In this document: piece by piece, positions 123 to 39,434 of the stretch
Layout: every line of letters begins with the position of its first letter
Numbering within the stretch: position 1 is the first letter of the stretch
From: a virus
IMG/VR virus record: IMGVR_UViG_3300012006_000012
Location: 1 to 40,666 of that record
DNA length: 40,666 nucleotides
Direction: 5' to 3' (one strand)
The notes under the pieces: model-generated
Database searches by the model: none
Seen by the model: the letters and a program-made list of their open reading frames with translations, nothing else
Told to the model about the DNA's origin: nothing
Position numbers and translations under genes: made by a program

Positions 123-752
123 TTAGGCGGTCTTTACCATTGAACGCTTAGCGATTGGGACTAGGACTTCCAATAGGGCGGTTAGGGTCTGAAGGTCTGA
201 TGTCTTCATTTCCTTGAGATTCTTCAGAGTGCGGACTTCCAATAGGGCTTGAGACACGATAGATTCGATAGACTTCGCGCTTACCTTCTCGGACTTCGCA
301 TTAGTGCGGGACTTAGATTGAGTCGGTGCGACCTTCTCTAATTCTTCGATAGTTGATGCGCCTTCGATAGCGCCTTGAGCGCCTTCCGCGCCATGCTCGC
401 GACCGACACGCTCGGACAATTTTAGAAGGCTCGCGACCGATTGAGATTCCGCATCTGAAACCTTGCCGACAATTTCAGAGAAGATTGGAAACCATTGGAC
501 ATGTGACTTTCGGATTGTAGGGGCATTTCCGATTTTAGAGGCTTCCGCGATTGAGGCTTGGACTGTGCGGATTGAGGTCTTTCCATTTTTTAGCATTTCG
601 GCTATTTCTAGGACGAATTGGATTTCCCCGTCATGGTTGATGAGGGTTGAGTAACTTTCGACAATTTCCGCCATTGGGACGATTTCTGTCTTCTCGACCT
701 TGATTTTTGCTGGTGTTGAATTGTTAGTGCTGGCTACTGTTTTTTGAGTCAT
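123..752 (-). CDS. Hypothetical protein, 209 aa
   Basis: I do not recognise this protein. It is Lys/Ser/Glu-rich with a central HVQWFPIF patch (about residues 83-90), a charged low-complexity stretch (about 140-165) and a leucine-rich helical C-terminus. The ATG at 752 is preceded by GGAAATAAGAAA, a weak ribosome site. It is the only gene left of the origin-like block and is read away from it, with a strong terminator behind and a 15-bp palindromic operator 124 bp upstream. That placement would suit an early regulatory or replication-accessory role, but nothing in the sequence proves it. Confidence 0.7.
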   Translation of the reverse strand: MTQKTVASTNNSTPAKIKVEKTEIVPMAEIVESYSTLINHDGEIQFVLEIAEMLKNGKTSIRTVQASIAEASKIGNAPTIRKSHVQWFPIFSEIVGKVSDAESQSVASLLKLSERVGREHGAEGAQGAIEGASTIEELEKVAPTQSKSRTNAKSEKVSAKSIESIVSQALLEVRTLKNLKEMKTSDLQTLTALLEVLVPIAKRSMVKTA

Positions 753-5102: not shown

Positions 5103-5672
5103 ATGACAACACTTGTAGCAATTCAAGGTGATGGCTGGTCTGTCTTAGGTTGCGACTCTCGTTCTAGTGATGAAAGTGGTCGTCCTATGGACATGGCCAC
5201 TCACAAGATTATAGAAAATAACGGAATCCTTATTGCGGGTTCTGGAGCAGGACGTGGCTCAAATATTCTGCAGTTCGGATGGAAAGCACCTAAGCCTACG
5301 GCTGGTGCTAACTTGGATATCTGGGTAACTCAAACATTTATCCCAGCGATGCGTAAAGCATTTGTCGATGCAGGCTATGATATGAAAGAAGATGGGGAAG
5401 CAGCAGGACATGATTCTTCGTTTCTCATCTCAGTTAAAGGCGTTATCTATCCTATCTTTGAAGACTATTCTTGGGATAGGGACATTCGTGGTATATATTA
5501 CGGTGGTTCAGGTGGCGATGTTGCTCTTGGTGCTCTCGAGGCTCTTGGTGTCCAGCGTCTTACGAAGGCGGACTCAGTAGAAAAAGCAGTTCGTAAAGCA
5601 ATTGCTATCGCAGCACAGTGGGATATCTATACAGCAGAACCAATTATTACTAAAATTCATTATTCTAAGTAG
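5103..5672 (+). CDS. HslV/proteasome-beta-like threonine protease
   Basis: A 189-aa Ntn-hydrolase. After loss of Met1 the chain begins Thr-Thr as in HslV. Counting that Thr as 1, Asp falls at 17 in GCDSRSS, the position of the proteasomal Asp17, and Lys at 34 in THKI, next to the proteasomal Lys33. LIAGSGAGRG matches the Gly47 region and GGSGGDVALGALEAL a typical later helix. Length fits HslV (about 175 aa). GGGGACG precedes the ATG. It lies between portal and the other head genes, where phages place a prohead maturation protease, so cleavage of scaffold or head proteins is the obvious hypothesis. No unfoldase partner gene is present. Confidence 0.8.
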   Translation: MTTLVAIQGDGWSVLGCDSRSSDESGRPMDMATHKIIENNGILIAGSGAGRGSNILQFGWKAPKPTAGANLDIWVTQTFIPAMRKAFVDAGYDMKEDGEAAGHDSSFLISVKGVIYPIFEDYSWDRDIRGIYYGGSGGDVALGALEALGVQRLTKADSVEKAVRKAIAIAAQWDIYTAEPIITKIHYSK

Positions 5673-32311: not shown

Positions 32312-32686
32312 ATGGCTAGTTTTGCAAATGTTACAACAACAAGGATTCAAGATAGCATCTTACGAAGTGATAGAGAGTACAGTACAGATAGTATTGCAGG
32401 TTCCTCTATTAAGTTCAACAACGATGTTGCAGAAGTAACCTCCAAGTTATTTGATTTACTAATTAGTAAGCATAAGGATTACGGTCCTAAGAATATTTCA
32501 CAAAGTCCAGGTGGTCCTCTCAATGGTCTACGTGTGCGTATGTGGGATAAATTGGCTCGCATCAACAACCTAGTTGATAGTGGTGCTAATCCAGAGCATG
32601 AAAGCCTTGAAGATTCTTTCAAGGATATGGCAAACTATGCAATCATCGGATTGCTAGTTCTACAAGGAAAGTGGCCCCAAGAATGA
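32312..32686 (+). CDS. DUF1599-type nucleotide-modification-associated protein
   Basis: 124 aa. KHKDYGPKNISQSPGGPLNGLRVRMWDKLARINNLV (about 53-88), then EDSFKDMANYAIIGLLVL (about 101-118), matches the DUF1599 (nucleotide modification associated domain 1) helical family, related to all-alpha NTP pyrophosphohydrolases. It may sanitise or channel nucleotides. Overlaps the HNH gene by four bases. Confidence 0.75.
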   Translation: MASFANVTTTRIQDSILRSDREYSTDSIAGSSIKFNNDVAEVTSKLFDLLISKHKDYGPKNISQSPGGPLNGLRVRMWDKLARINNLVDSGANPEHESLEDSFKDMANYAIIGLLVLQGKWPQE

Positions 32687-35317: not shown

Positions 35318-35569
35318 TTACCTCCGCATAGTTTGTGTCGGTCGGAGTGTATGATTATCATACAGCCGTTGACGCTGTTGCGCCATAGCCTCCTGAACGC
35401 CGACATAGTTATCTAGAGATTGGCAAATCTTCTTGGCCATTTCTCTACCTTCTAATCTATTATATCCAAACATGGCTAGTTTGTCTATTACTTTTTGCAC
35501 ACGAGGCTCTTGTTGGTAAGCGCCTTCTTTGAAGATTTGCAACTTACCCTGTCTGACTCTAGTTATCAT
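35318..35569 (-). CDS. Hypothetical protein, 83 aa
   Basis: Basic helical protein with VQKVIDKLAMFGYNRLEGREMAKKIC (about 24-49). ATG 35569 overlaps the preceding stop as TGATG. Its 3' coding end contains palindrome copy 2 (read as YDNHT). Confidence 0.7.
   Translation of the reverse strand: MITRVRQGKLQIFKEGAYQQEPRVQKVIDKLAMFGYNRLEGREMAKKICQSLDNYVGVQEAMAQQRQRLYDNHTLRPTQTMRR
35349..35363. promoter_or_regulatory. 15-bp palindromic operator, copy 2
   Basis: GTATGATTATCATAC inside the 83-aa gene, eight bases from an adjacent GTTTGTGTCGG motif at 35331-35341. Confidence 0.7.
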
Positions 35570-35949
35570 CAGTACCAACCCTTCTTGTTATGGAACTTTA
35601 GCGCTTGGCAAGGTGAGCCATAGCGGTATAGAATATAGGCAAAGCCACGCTCAATTTGACGTGTTGCTGGCACGTTCGGGTTCATACCCAGTAGTTGCGG
35701 TATACCACCTGCGTTTTTACCCATTACCTTATGATTATTATAGGCTTCGGGTCTCCAATGAGACTCTTTAGTCCATAACTTATCTAGACAATCGAACTGC
35801 TTATCATTCCATGCAAGCATTACATCTTTTGCATAGGCTTTGCTATCTTCTGCTGTCCACTTGTGTGCTGGTGTTACTTTCTCATGCCCTGCATGAGTTA
35901 CACCAAACACCATAAATATTACTATCAAAAGCAATAGTAATTTCTTCAT
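35569..35949 (-). CDS. Secreted lytic-transglycosylase-like protein, 126 aa
   Basis: A signal peptide (about 1-20, MKKLLLLLIVIFMVFGVTHA) precedes a compact domain with FDCLDKLWTKESHWRPEAYN (catalytic-type Glu62), GIPQLLGMN, ATRQIERGFAYILYRYGSPCQA and a C-terminal NKKGWY. This is the layout of small SLT/Rpf-like transglycosylases; Cys54 and Cys114 could form a disulfide outside the membrane. AAGGTGG precedes the ATG. A wall-acting exported enzyme in the early operon rather than in the lysis or tail cassette is unusual. Confidence 0.75.
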   Translation of the reverse strand: MKKLLLLLIVIFMVFGVTHAGHEKVTPAHKWTAEDSKAYAKDVMLAWNDKQFDCLDKLWTKESHWRPEAYNNHKVMGKNAGGIPQLLGMNPNVPATRQIERGFAYILYRYGSPCQALKFHNKKGWY

Positions 35950-35952
35950 AGT

Positions 35953-36291
35953 TTACCACCTTACTAGAGGTATCATCTTGTCGGCAAAGTCTAGAGCGCG
36001 TCCCATATCTGACTGCACTCCATAGTTTTCTCGTGACCTACCTAGCCTAGCGATACGTTCGCCAGCGAGTAATCCACCCCATATACCATGCGGTAGATTT
36101 TCTGTCTTCATTCCCTCTTCTAGACATCGCGCCTTAGACGGACACGTATTGCACTGCTCAATAGCGTAGTTGATACTGCTTACCAACTCCGCACGTCTAG
36201 CGTTAGAAGGTCGACCATTATCGTTCTCAGGAAACCAGTAATCTGCATTAGGGTCGTTAGTGCAGTTACCTACTAGCGGTTCAGTCTTCAT
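35953..36291 (-). CDS. whiB-like: WhiB-family transcription regulator
   Basis: 112 aa from ATG 36291. Four iron-sulfur cysteines (C10, C47, C50, C56 in CNTCPSKARC) and the GIWGG turn (69-73) followed by LLAGERIARLGR define WhiB. These proteins are restricted to Actinobacteria and their phages and act with the primary sigma factor, so it may redirect host or phage promoters. It overlaps the 48-aa gene by 11 bases. An upstream in-frame start at 36342 lies inside that gene and is rejected. Confidence 0.85.
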   Translation of the reverse strand: MKTEPLVGNCTNDPNADYWFPENDNGRPSNARRAELVSSINYAIEQCNTCPSKARCLEEGMKTENLPHGIWGGLLAGERIARLGRSRENYGVQSDMGRALDFADKMIPLVRW

Positions 36292-36427
36292 GCATCTCGT
36301 CCCACATTCTATCAGGGTCGTCGTCTTCGACGCACTCTGCATCTATTTCATGGTCGTGTCCACATTCGTCACAGTCGTCCATTCCTAATGCAAACGGGTC
36401 TCCTTGAAGCCACATTGGTTCACTCAT
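36281..36427 (-). CDS. Acidic zinc-type mini-protein, 48 aa
   Basis: From ATG 36427, with GGGGAAGATA ahead. DDCDECGHDHEIDAECVEDDDPDR (about 17-40) holds CxxC and His residues in an acidic context. Overlaps the preceding stop (ATGAGTGA) and the WhiB start. Function unknown. Confidence 0.7.
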   Translation of the reverse strand: MSEPMWLQGDPFALGMDDCDECGHDHEIDAECVEDDDPDRMWDEMHED

Positions 36428-37154: not shown

Positions 37155-37364
37155 TTACCCCCTATTGTATGCTGGATAGTATACAGGAACTACCTCAGCG
37201 TTGTCAAGTTGCTTCGCCCAATCTAGGGCTTTATCTAACGTTGGAAAGATACCATAATGTACCAATCCCTCATCAGTTTTTGTTTCTGTTATGTATCCCT
37301 CTACACCCATGCCCCAAATGGTAGCACGAATCTTTATATCTTTAGAAGTCGAAGTGCTTATCAT
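37155..37364 (-). CDS. Hypothetical protein, 69 aa
   Basis: From ATG 37364 with AAGGAGC ahead. Beta-rich start (KDIKIRATIWGMGVEGYITE), then DEGLVHYGIFPTLDKALDWAKQL. The start lies within the last codons of the amidotransferase gene. A longer in-frame start at 37508 gives a false membrane helix that is the amidotransferase's Cys-rich tail read in another frame. Confidence 0.68.
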   Translation of the reverse strand: MISTSTSKDIKIRATIWGMGVEGYITETKTDEGLVHYGIFPTLDKALDWAKQLDNAEVVPVYYPAYNRG

Positions 37365-38184
37365 AGTACCATGCTCCTTGTGGTTTGTGTCGGTCGCGTT
37401 GCCACTTACTATCGGCTGGTGTGTAACATAAGCAAGAATCGCCATACATGCCACTACAATCAAAGCAAGCAAAGCACATCTCGCAGTAGTAGGGGTTAGC
37501 ATCTTCAAATGCTATCGACCTACATGACGGACATTCGTAGTCTTCCAGTAGTTCCGCATCTGTATGATTATCATACGCAATCTCACCAACACTACTGGGC
37601 TTGAGATAACTAGACCACGCGGATGCCTTGTATGTATCATTAGACCACCACATGCCCTCATTATCCCAATGACCACTAGACTCGTTGATGATGTAGCATT
37701 GGTCATTAGCCAATGGGTCAAGCGTAAAAATAACAACCTTGCTACCACTAGCCCACTTGCTTACTATCTTCCATACATTATCATCATCAAGAGCCTTGAC
37801 TCCACCTATTGCAGGAAGGGTATCTTCTGCAAAGACACGCGTATCACTACGCTTATCTGTTGCATGGATTTCTATGTCGAGGATACCATTGTGCGCTAGA
37901 TAGGTATCATCTCTACCGCCAACCTTGAAGGGGTGGCAGTTATCTTGATTCTTTACGCCATGCGTAGCATATCTAGCATGATACATAGCATAACTATTAG
38001 GGTATTCTTTACGAACTTCTAAGAACTCTTTGATAACTTTCTTAGCAGACATACCCTTGCCTGTGATAATCTTATCACCAGCGATTACTGCATAGCCAAA
38101 GCCATGCGGGTTATTACATGAAGCACACTCTAAATCTTTTTTACGAGGCGTAGAGTTGGGTGAGCATACGACTAATAAGCACAT
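37342..38184 (-). CDS. Class II glutamine amidotransferase with zinc-ribbon tail
   Basis: 280 aa. The chain starts Met-Cys2, the N-terminal nucleophile of class II amidotransferases. HARYATHG (69-76), CHPF (83-86) and LAHNGI (96-101) build the Gln pocket. It releases ammonia from glutamine for a partner enzyme. The C-terminal part (about 215-260) is a multi-CxxC ribbon (CPSCR, CEMCFACFDC, CLCY) not needed for that chemistry. GATAGGATAGAT precedes the ATG, two bases after the amidoligase stop, so the two are co-translated and likely one complex. Palindrome copy 4 lies inside. Confidence 0.83.
   Translation of the reverse strand: MCLLVVCSPNSTPRKKDLECASCNNPHGFGYAVIAGDKIITGKGMSAKKVIKEFLEVRKEYPNSYAMYHARYATHGVKNQDNCHPFKVGGRDDTYLAHNGILDIEIHATDKRSDTRVFAEDTLPAIGGVKALDDDNVWKIVSKWASGSKVVIFTLDPLANDQCYIINESSGHWDNEGMWWSNDTYKASAWSSYLKPSSVGEIAYDNHTDAELLEDYECPSCRSIAFEDANPYYCEMCFACFDCSGMYGDSCLCYTPADSKWQRDRHKPQGAWYYDKHFDF
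37562..37576. promoter_or_regulatory. 15-bp palindromic operator, copy 4
   Basis: GTATGATTATCATAC inside the amidotransferase gene, read as YDNHT. Confidence 0.7.
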
Positions 38185-38186
38185 AT

Positions 38187-39398
38187 CTATCCTATCGTTT
38201 GTAGTTGGTTAGCAACTTTTGCTAATCGGATGTTTAGTTCTGCATACAGTCCAGCATTGTCCTGTATGTATTGCGTGAAGTTATCAGAAGACAACGCACC
38301 TTGACGAATATCTCTGACCGACAAGCCTCTAGTATACTCAACGCTGGCGTGCGCTAAGTCAATGAAAGCCTTGACTGTCTCACTATTGACGCTACTTCTA
38401 AAGATACGCATCTCTAAGGTAGCATGGTTCTGTGTATTGACCGCAGAGTATCGGTCGCTGTTGCGAGCGTTCTCTAACTTGTTCTTGAGGTTACGGCGTT
38501 GAGCCCATACTCTATCGCCGTCATCATCTATGCCTTTCACATAGTCGGTATGAGCATCATCAAACTTAGCCCAACGACTAGATGAACGACCTGCTATTGC
38601 TTCGTATAGTGTCTGATTATCATACACTAATCGTAAGAAGCGGTGCATGTGCGAACCACCATTGAATCCTGCACGTGAAATGTGAATGTGCAGACCTGCG
38701 GTTGATGCACTCCACGCCTTCACCTTAATACTCTCCCTGCTTCGTAACGCTTCGAGAGTATTCCATAACTCATTGGCTTCGTTCTTGTAAAAATCATGGG
38801 TCATGGGATGCGTGACTATTTCAAAGCCACAGTTGAGAGAGCCATCACTCTTGAGATAGGCTAACTCGTATTCTTCTAGTCTGCTCGCATACTCTGCGGA
38901 CTCAGACCTATTGCGTGATGCTTCTACTTCGATTTCTATCCCGAAGAATAAGCGTTCTTCTTTGTCTGTGCTGTGGAACACAGGGTCAGGGCGGTAAGAG
39001 TAATCATGGATTACCTGCGCATCATCTCCGTCATGGTCGGTGCAACCATGTGCGTAATACGCATCACAGTCCTCACACCAACTCGTATTACCTACGCAGT
39101 TCTCGCAGTAAGAATTGTTGGTGTCTTCTGTATAGTAACTATCGCCTGTGTGATACTCATTACAATCATCACAGTAATTGGCGTGGCTTTCCATACAACT
39201 TTCGCACCACATCTCGCTTTGGTCTACGTAATACCACGAGTCATTTTCCCAACCAGTATCATCACAGCGCTCGCATATTCGCTTGCACTCTGAGCAACTT
39301 ACATCACCCGAATAGGTAATGCTATACGCATCATCTTCGCTAACCTCTGCGGTGCAACCGCTACAAGTTAGGTTAGGTGATACTTCGTCTGTATCCAT
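38187..39398 (-). CDS. Amidoligase (COOH-NH2 ligase) with cysteine-rich N-terminus
   Basis: 403 aa. Residues 12-120 carry seven or more CxxC pairs (CSGC, CSEC, CERC, CESC, CDDC, CENC, CEDC). The amidoligase core follows: FFGIEIEVEA (151-160), LKSDGSLNCGFEIVTHPMT (182-200), LHIHIS (236-241) and LEMRIFR (328-334), the Glu/His/Arg set of the glutamine-synthetase-like amidoligase superfamily. These enzymes form amide bonds using ATP. With the glutaminase next door it would amidate a carboxyl group or tag a protein. GAAAGGATAGATT precedes the ATG. Confidence 0.82.
   Translation of the reverse strand: MDTDEVSPNLTCSGCTAEVSEDDAYSITYSGDVSCSECKRICERCDDTGWENDSWYYVDQSEMWCESCMESHANYCDDCNEYHTGDSYYTEDTNNSYCENCVGNTSWCEDCDAYYAHGCTDHDGDDAQVIHDYSYRPDPVFHSTDKEERLFFGIEIEVEASRNRSESAEYASRLEEYELAYLKSDGSLNCGFEIVTHPMTHDFYKNEANELWNTLEALRSRESIKVKAWSASTAGLHIHISRAGFNGGSHMHRFLRLVYDNQTLYEAIAGRSSSRWAKFDDAHTDYVKGIDDDGDRVWAQRRNLKNKLENARNSDRYSAVNTQNHATLEMRIFRSSVNSETVKAFIDLAHASVEYTRGLSVRDIRQGALSSDNFTQYIQDNAGLYAELNIRLAKVANQLQTIG
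38611..38625. promoter_or_regulatory. Palindromic operator, copy 5 (one mismatch)
   Basis: GTCTGATTATCATAC inside the amidoligase gene; one base differs from the family, and the leftward reading is YDNQT. Confidence 0.5.
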
Positions 39399-39419: not shown

Positions 39420-39434
39420 GTATGATTATCATAC
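39420..39434. promoter_or_regulatory. 15-bp palindromic operator, copy 6
   Basis: GTATGATTATCATAC in the 69-bp gap between the 61-aa gene and the amidoligase start, 22 bases before the amidoligase ATG. This is the clearest intergenic copy: a bound protein would lie over the amidoligase leader. TATAAC lies 22-28 bases upstream on the minus strand without a clear -35. Confidence 0.7.

Follow-up and report, generated by a model that had tools for sequence, protein, structure and literature searches.

A predicted two-part amidating enzyme with conserved cysteine modules, encoded by a virus with palindromic operators

We analysed a stretch of virus DNA of 40,666 nucleotides (IMG/VR virus record IMGVR_UViG_3300012006_000012, positions 1 to 40,666; the whole stretch is called the window here) and in particular two adjacent genes on its minus strand, an amidoligase gene and a class II glutaminase gene. 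From sequence and model comparisons, the pair very probably encodes a two-part amidating enzyme that uses ammonia derived from glutamine, and an ammonia-channelling amidating ligase appears to be the best reading of it. The explanation that accounts best for the observations as a whole, to which we give a probability of about 0.45, is that the pair passes ammonia from one subunit to the other while a LIM-like array of cysteine pairs on the ligase presents a carboxylate of a protein. Comparison supports family membership, fold, the sets of catalytic residues, evolutionary constraint, co-inheritance and the operator. Iyer and Aravind reportedly predicted amide-forming amidoligase/glutamine amidotransferase (GATase) systems in phages, of which the window pair appears to be one form; the kind itself is thus already known. 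What our comparison sets apart is a minimal form that consists of two genes, has conserved cysteine modules and is inherited together across phages and actinobacterial contigs.

Identity, fold and constraint of the two genes

The preliminary description of this DNA had placed an amidoligase and a glutaminase two bases apart. Both open reading frames (ORFs) are real and lie on the minus strand, the amidoligase ORF ending at 38187 and the glutaminase ATG starting at 38184, so that the gap is indeed two bases.

38187-39398, minus strand: amidoligase gene, 403 aa, upstream member of the pair (PF12224, fold, catalytic columns, substitution rates)
38190-38957, minus strand: glutamine-synthetase-like catalytic core, residues 148-403 (VIA and invariant residues)
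37342-38184, minus strand: class II glutamine amidotransferase (glutaminase) gene, 280 aa (near-cut-off Pfam, fold, substitution rates)
37630-38184, minus strand: Ntn-hydrolase glutaminase core, residues 1-185, nucleophile Cys2 (Cys2, R71, T74-G76, N99 and D114 conserved)

The product of 38187-39398 is, on these comparisons, a glutamine synthetase (GS)-like amidoligase for which ATP-dependent amide formation is predicted. Residues 150-351 match PF12224 (Amidoligase_2) with 40.1 bits against a cut-off of 22. The AlphaFold model (predicted local distance difference test, pLDDT, 89.6; predicted TM-score, pTM, 0.67) resembles glutamine synthetases, YbdK, GmaS, Dop, PafA and glutamate-cysteine ligase in Foldseek and VIA comparisons, with a Foldseek E of 7e-5 against glutamine synthetase and a VIA Z of 11.7 both against YbdK (220 residues, root-mean-square deviation 4.0) and against glutamine synthetase, for residues 144-402. 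A profile of the YbdK family, TIGR02050, matches weakly (E 0.011). G153, E155, E157, E193, H237, H239, R271, N321, E329 and R331 are identical in all 116 amidoligases of an alignment made up of 108 sequences from pairs on bacterial-genome contigs and eight from phages. By analogy with GS enzymes, we take E155, E157, E193, H237, H239, R271, E329 and R331 to have roles in the active site. The ratio of nonsynonymous to synonymous substitution rates (dN/dS) is 0.13-0.17 against five close relatives, which indicates purifying selection. PF12224 was silent in seven of ten genomes that hold this amidoligase subfamily (those of L260, L268, L273, L278, L279, L295 and L304), and family counts based on Pfam are therefore too low.

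The product of 37342-38184 is, by the same kinds of evidence, a class II glutaminase with an Ntn-hydrolase fold and predicted glutaminase activity. Its N-terminus is Met1-Cys2, which places the nucleophile cysteine right behind the initiator methionine. Pfam matches are marginal (PF13230, 22.8 bits with a cut-off of 23; PF13522, 23.1 with a cut-off of 27). The structure model (pLDDT 75.1) resembles the glutaminases of GlmS, PurF and EgtC, that of GlmS with a Foldseek E of 1.9e-6. Residue counts were taken from an alignment of 100 cellular ORFs, the paralogue alignment having trimming gaps in 13-14 rows; Cys2 is present in 99 of the 100, the remaining one being an alignment gap, and H69, R71, T74, G76, H84, H98, N99, D114 and S181 in all 100. 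Since the fold search and the catalytic residues agree, we regard the identity of the glutaminase as settled although the Pfam scores are marginal. Its dN/dS of 0.08-0.12 against five close relatives again points to purifying selection. A PADLOC search for defence systems matched neither the amidoligase nor the glutaminase.

Inheritance of the pair as a unit

Among related viral loci (the best 80 of 175 relatives) the amidoligase gene lies directly upstream of the glutaminase gene in 77, and the three exceptions (L035, L069 and L085) are contigs that start at or near the glutaminase. A further set, the best 80 of 258 relatives, gave 75 loci. A phage collection held 25 records matching the amidoligase, 36 matching the glutaminase and, by coordinates, 22 matching both; these last are 19 Marvinvirus records, two OM43 phages and ctgrD200, and adjacency was confirmed in the three that were inspected. 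On bacterial-genome contigs, mostly of Nocardia, a glutaminase follows 108 of the 116 amidoligase ORFs that have room downstream. ORFs of at least 900 aa were excluded from this count and from the paralogue analysis, which removes L282, L306 and L325, and some of the contigs called bacterial may be viral, L320 being one such case. Of three Mycobacterium plasmids, two carry an amidoligase followed by a gene labelled 'glucosamine 6-phosphate synthetase', the third match lying near the end of its record. Besides other phages, mobile DNA of bacteria carries the pair.

Tandem arrays of two or three such pairs occur on Nocardia contigs (L257-L317). Where there are two pairs in a row (38 loci), the upstream and downstream copies form separate, old paralogue classes in both genes; the nearest neighbour falls within its own class in 76 of 76 cases for each gene, and the distance correlation is 0.76. 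Because the paralogue classes match between the two proteins, the pair seems to have been duplicated as a unit. That amidoligase and class II glutaminase make up one functional unit, as the preliminary description supposed, is supported at the level of comparison by adjacency, matching paralogue classes, catalytic sets and folds. Bifidobacterium phages also hold relatives of the glutaminase, and the genes beside these are unannotated.

Cysteine modules

Both proteins carry additional cysteine modules, as had been described from the window alone, and the modules are conserved.

39042-39365, minus strand: LIM-like array of cysteine pairs, amidoligase residues 12-119, 15 cysteines (Cys conservation, weak LIM matches)
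37426-37533, minus strand: eight-cysteine C-terminal module, glutaminase residues 218-253 (Cys conservation)

Fifteen of the 16 cysteines of the amidoligase lie in its array, and among 69 family sequences conservation is 99-100% for fourteen of them and 90% for Cys79. They are spaced as C-x2-C, about 19 residues, C-x2-C, three residues, C-x2-C, about 19 residues and C-x2-C, with a second, similar unit after this, a spacing close to the LIM consensus. Foldseek gave weak LIM matches (PINCH1 LIM4-5, E 0.023, probability 0.96; Lhx3, E 0.11). When 12 family N-termini were compared with Pfam, LIM was found in two (best E 8e-4) and DZR in three, and the BFVD match at rank 7 bears the name 'LIM domain containing protein'. 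We would call the array LIM-like rather than LIM proper, a weak assignment by sequence, and it is probably zinc-binding. In one open-access library we found no paper joining an amidoligase with a LIM domain. The glutaminase tail keeps all eight of its cysteines in 77 of 77 family sequences; over this module the structure model is of low confidence and unreliable. The tail also has a weak match to a PHROG DNA-binding family (E 0.055).

The two modules had been suggested to bind each other or a protein target, and mutual binding as their main role now looks less probable. At least five CxxC motifs are found at the amidoligase N-terminus in 96 of 98 actinobacterial pairs, and four in the glutaminase tail in 90. 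All nine clostridial pairs retain the N-terminal array (6-8 CxxC), whereas their glutaminase tails are without CxxC, from which it follows that the array is not merely a dock for the tail. The phage record ctgrD200 scored zero in the CxxC count, probably because the motif used to cut out the N-terminus was matched too early; its cysteine pairs are seen in the alignment.

Palindromic operators and a candidate regulator

The preliminary description reported a palindromic operator ahead of the pair and others inside both genes, and all three were recovered.

39421-39433: palindromic operator, 22 nt before the amidoligase ATG (repeat of TATGATNATCATA)
38612-38624: operator copy inside the amidoligase gene, one mismatch (repeat of TATGATNATCATA)
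37563-37575: perfect operator copy within the glutaminase gene, where the variable linker ahead of the Cys module is encoded (repeat of TATGATNATCATA)
123-752, minus strand: candidate regulator of 209 aa, which may bind the palindromes (its divergence tracks palindrome type)

The window contains 11 copies of TATGATNATCATA (starting at 877, 35350, 35730, 37074, 37563, 38612, 39421, 39831, 40337, 40436 and 40537), nine of them perfect and two with one mismatch; ten lie between 35350 and 40549 and the remaining copy is that at 877. When up to two mismatches are allowed, the strand-hits number 25, compared with 1.9 expected and at most 7 in a shuffled sequence. This sequence is not common to the related phages. 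Instead, 58 of 78 loci carry a perfect palindrome of their own, 12-13 bases long and repeated at least three times (only exact copies were used for typing), and 19 different sequences were found among them, while in 100 shuffles the copy number of a palindrome never rose above 1. The amidoligase ORF has an upstream copy no more than 120 nt away in 51 of the 58 typed loci, mostly at 17-43 nt; the distance of 1 nt in L082 is due to its ORF start. As the sequence of the palindrome changes while its place stays, these observations fit an operator whose binding protein co-evolves with it.

The equivalent of 123-752 tracks palindrome type best among the genes located up to 6 kb from the pair. After removal of near-identical phage pairs (glutaminase more than 85% identical), its identity across 34 loci was 53.0% within types and 22.8% between them, compared with 70.8% and 65.8% for the glutaminase, and the gap of 30.2 points may be set against a maximum of 9.1 in 1000 permutations. 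In a comparison of 11 genomes, from which W-G002 was excluded, the gap was 28.7 points, and the highest of 37 ranked families, a gene of the structural region, reached 25.6; 123-752 was reached in fewer than nine of the 11 genomes by the search on which that ranking was based, and was hence scored by position. With this narrow lead, and with shared ancestry as a confounder, 123-752 is a candidate only. Its product has no match in Pfam or in the phage collection. Counted across the ends of the record, the gene is about 3.2 kb upstream from the pair, as in the relatives, and it is for this reason that the record looks circularly permuted. These patterns suggest that the 123-752 product could be an immunity-like repressor acting on the palindromes, and that the 19 palindrome types could be diversified operator or immunity types. 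We consider this set of types the most surprising part of the analysis, and a diversified immunity system of the kind it suggests is worth study in itself.

Proposed mechanism and alternative explanations

In the mechanism proposed here, the class II glutaminase would free ammonia from glutamine at Cys2 and pass it to the GS-like amidoligase, which with ATP would activate a carboxylate as an acyl phosphate and convert it to the amide. For the glutaminase activity, the ligase activity and the transfer of ammonia we argue from the chemistry of the families. The substrate, for which a protein carboxylate is the likeliest candidate, would be presented to the ligase active site by the LIM-like array, and in the actinobacterial branch the cysteine tail of the glutaminase may aid assembly. 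The phage would express the pair from an operator-controlled leftward operon, and the altered host component might benefit the phage itself or work against competitors. The substrate and the benefit to the phage are guesses within this scheme. A slight lean towards a protein target comes from the persistence of the array without the tail in the clostridial pairs, from its likeness to LIM, from the protein-modifying relatives PafA and Dop, and from the missing gamma-glutamyl cyclotransferase and the DNA-handling Nocardia neighbours discussed below; that the substrate is a protein rather than the wall or something else is put forward tentatively. Several observations weigh against amidation of a docked protein by a dedicated complex. 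The window amidoligase's own N-terminus has no Pfam match to LIM or DZR, and membership of LIM is weak. The amidoligase of Clostridioides phage AR1086-1 has no recognised adjoining glutaminase, and eight of the 116 amidoligase ORFs on bacterial-genome contigs have none downstream. Adjacency in the phage lineage is in part inherited synteny, the whole neighbourhood being conserved there. Lastly, a 126-aa product encoded in the same operon (35569-35949, minus strand), with a signal-peptide-like start and by eye a lysozyme-like motif, hints at the wall; 73 of 81 loci retain its gene, and it has no Pfam match.

This last product would fit amidation of peptidoglycan, in which carboxylates of wall peptides or their precursors would be amidated and other phages or lytic enzymes would then be less effective. 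For related phage cassettes, wall modification is a published hypothesis, as far as the accessible portions of PMC5498523, PMC11945000, PMC11318856 and PMC10580990 go, and for the window pair we hold it to be possible, if rather doubtful. The gamma-glutamyl cyclotransferase (GGACT) that is a partner in those cassettes was not found in the window record (control positive in nine of 14 genomes), and no ATP-grasp was found among the 22 window ORFs scanned, a subset of all ORFs. A second COOH-NH2 ligase (PF14395) also gave no match in the window record, the controls being equally silent. The recurrent neighbours at the Nocardia loci belong to DNA-handling families (DprA, SSB, Prim-Pol, also DUF4192) and are not wall genes. 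All this still leaves room for a minimal two-gene wall enzyme. The closest solved folds, among them YbdK, GmaS and glutamate-cysteine ligase, could be taken with the weak YbdK-family match as pointing to small-molecule synthesis, the ligase amidating or joining a short peptide or metabolite in the manner of YbdK, GmaS and the plant glutamate-cysteine ligase; a long, conserved cysteine array would be unexpected on a metabolite enzyme, however, and fold does not predict substrate, and we think this improbable.

The DNA-handling Nocardia neighbours (SSB, Prim-Pol and DprA families) might also be read in favour of amidation of nucleic-acid bases, in which the cysteine modules would bind nucleic acid and the pair would amidate carboxylated bases of either DNA or RNA. 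The weak PHROG match of the glutaminase tail is in line with this, as is a phage protein of the DUF1599 family ('nucleotide modification associated domain 1').

32312-32686, plus strand: DUF1599 protein (Pfam; kept in 61 loci)

No base-carboxylating enzyme was recognised among the window ORFs scanned, however, and LIM-type modules usually bind proteins, so that base amidation seems very unlikely. Least credible of all is that there is no enzyme complex, and that two independently useful genes are adjacent through phage synteny alone. The conservation of the whole neighbourhood within the window's phage lineage would allow it, but the adjacency recurs in unrelated contexts and the tandem duplicates split together.

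If the ammonia-passing pair does act on proteins, a wider scheme of LIM-guided protein amidation can be imagined, in which phages and actinobacterial mobile elements would dock chosen host proteins and amidate their carboxylates with glutamine-derived ammonia, the tandem Nocardia pairs would serve different targets, and the freshwater phages would control the pair through an immunity-type palindromic operator. Taken in full this scheme is speculative and unlikely to hold in every part. A protein target would make it a new phage post-translational modification. Amidoligase and glutaminase genes of phages have been annotated for more than a decade with a guess of wall modification attached, and the accessible portions of PMC10580990, PMC3890496, PMC5705681, PMC3517423, PMC11318856, PMC5498523, PMC6209634, PMC11945000 and PMC5513430 report no biochemical product of such a pair. 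Marvin in M. smegmatis and the Nocardia tandem arrays offer cultured models for the question of substrate.

Comparison with known systems

Mycobacteriophage Marvin (gp105-gp106), like 18 further Marvinvirus records, has an amidoligase-like gene next to one for a class II glutaminase, each product with a cysteine module; the two products are 31% and 33% identical to those of the window. The Marvin pair differs in its shorter N-terminal array (four CxxC), its extended C-terminus and its unrelated neighbourhood. The 'peptidoglycan modification' cassette of the phiEco32, LUZ24 and RIO-1 type also combines an amidoligase with a class II glutaminase in phage early regions; according to the accessible parts of the sources, it adds genes for ATP-grasp, GGCT and COOH-NH2 ligase, whereas GGCT (the cyclotransferase) is absent from the window record. 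This cassette was reportedly described in Iyer 2009 and Hardies 2013. In the OM43 phages MEP401 and MEP402 (PMC10580990), an amidoligase is likewise followed by a GATase, but the ligase has a long, unrelated N-terminus with two CxxC and the GATase is without a cysteine tail. The Nocardia tandem arrays and Mycobacterium plasmid pairs share with the window the gene order, the N-terminal array and the four-CxxC glutaminase tail; they differ in that two or three pairs often stand in a row, in an identity of about 35%, and in being mostly missed by PF12224. PafA and Dop, the Pup ligase and deamidase, have a GS-like fold, as the window ligase is predicted to have, and use it on protein carboxylates. 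They lack both a glutaminase partner and a LIM-like array, and the likeness is at fold level only.

The palindromes recall the cluster A mycobacteriophages, in which repressor and stoperator sites diversify together (PMC6550527, accessible portion) and the stoperators are asymmetric and 13 bp long (PMC9283540, accessible portion). Both systems appear to have many copies of a site specific to the phage type, with the repressor, or in the window phages the candidate regulator, and the site diverging together. The window-type sites are perfect palindromes, in contrast to the asymmetric stoperators, and the candidate regulator is unrelated by Pfam.

Source record and host

The record encodes a CHAP-domain protein, a DnaB/RecA-type ATPase and a WhiB-family protein, and its terminase is 75% identical to that of Caudovirales ct2KA10 and about 45% to those of Streptomyces phages.

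35953-36342, minus strand: WhiB-family protein (37.6 bits)

WhiB proteins are actinobacterial, which makes an actinobacterial host likely, and aquatic actinobacteria are the likely hosts of the virus. An archaeal host was considered as an argument against a wall substrate and rejected. The contig in question, L320, was binned as Lokiarchaeota, and it carries, besides the amidoligase pair, ORFs that read from their translations as terminase, portal, helicase and primase. These mark a tailed virus, perhaps a misbinned one, and L320 is for this reason uninformative about archaeal chromosomes. In the window, a 602-aa ORF reads as the portal, and directly after it lies 5103-5672 (plus strand), which encodes a proteasome-type Ntn hydrolase (Pfam Proteasome, 23.8 bits with a cut-off of 22.4) and is perhaps a head protease.

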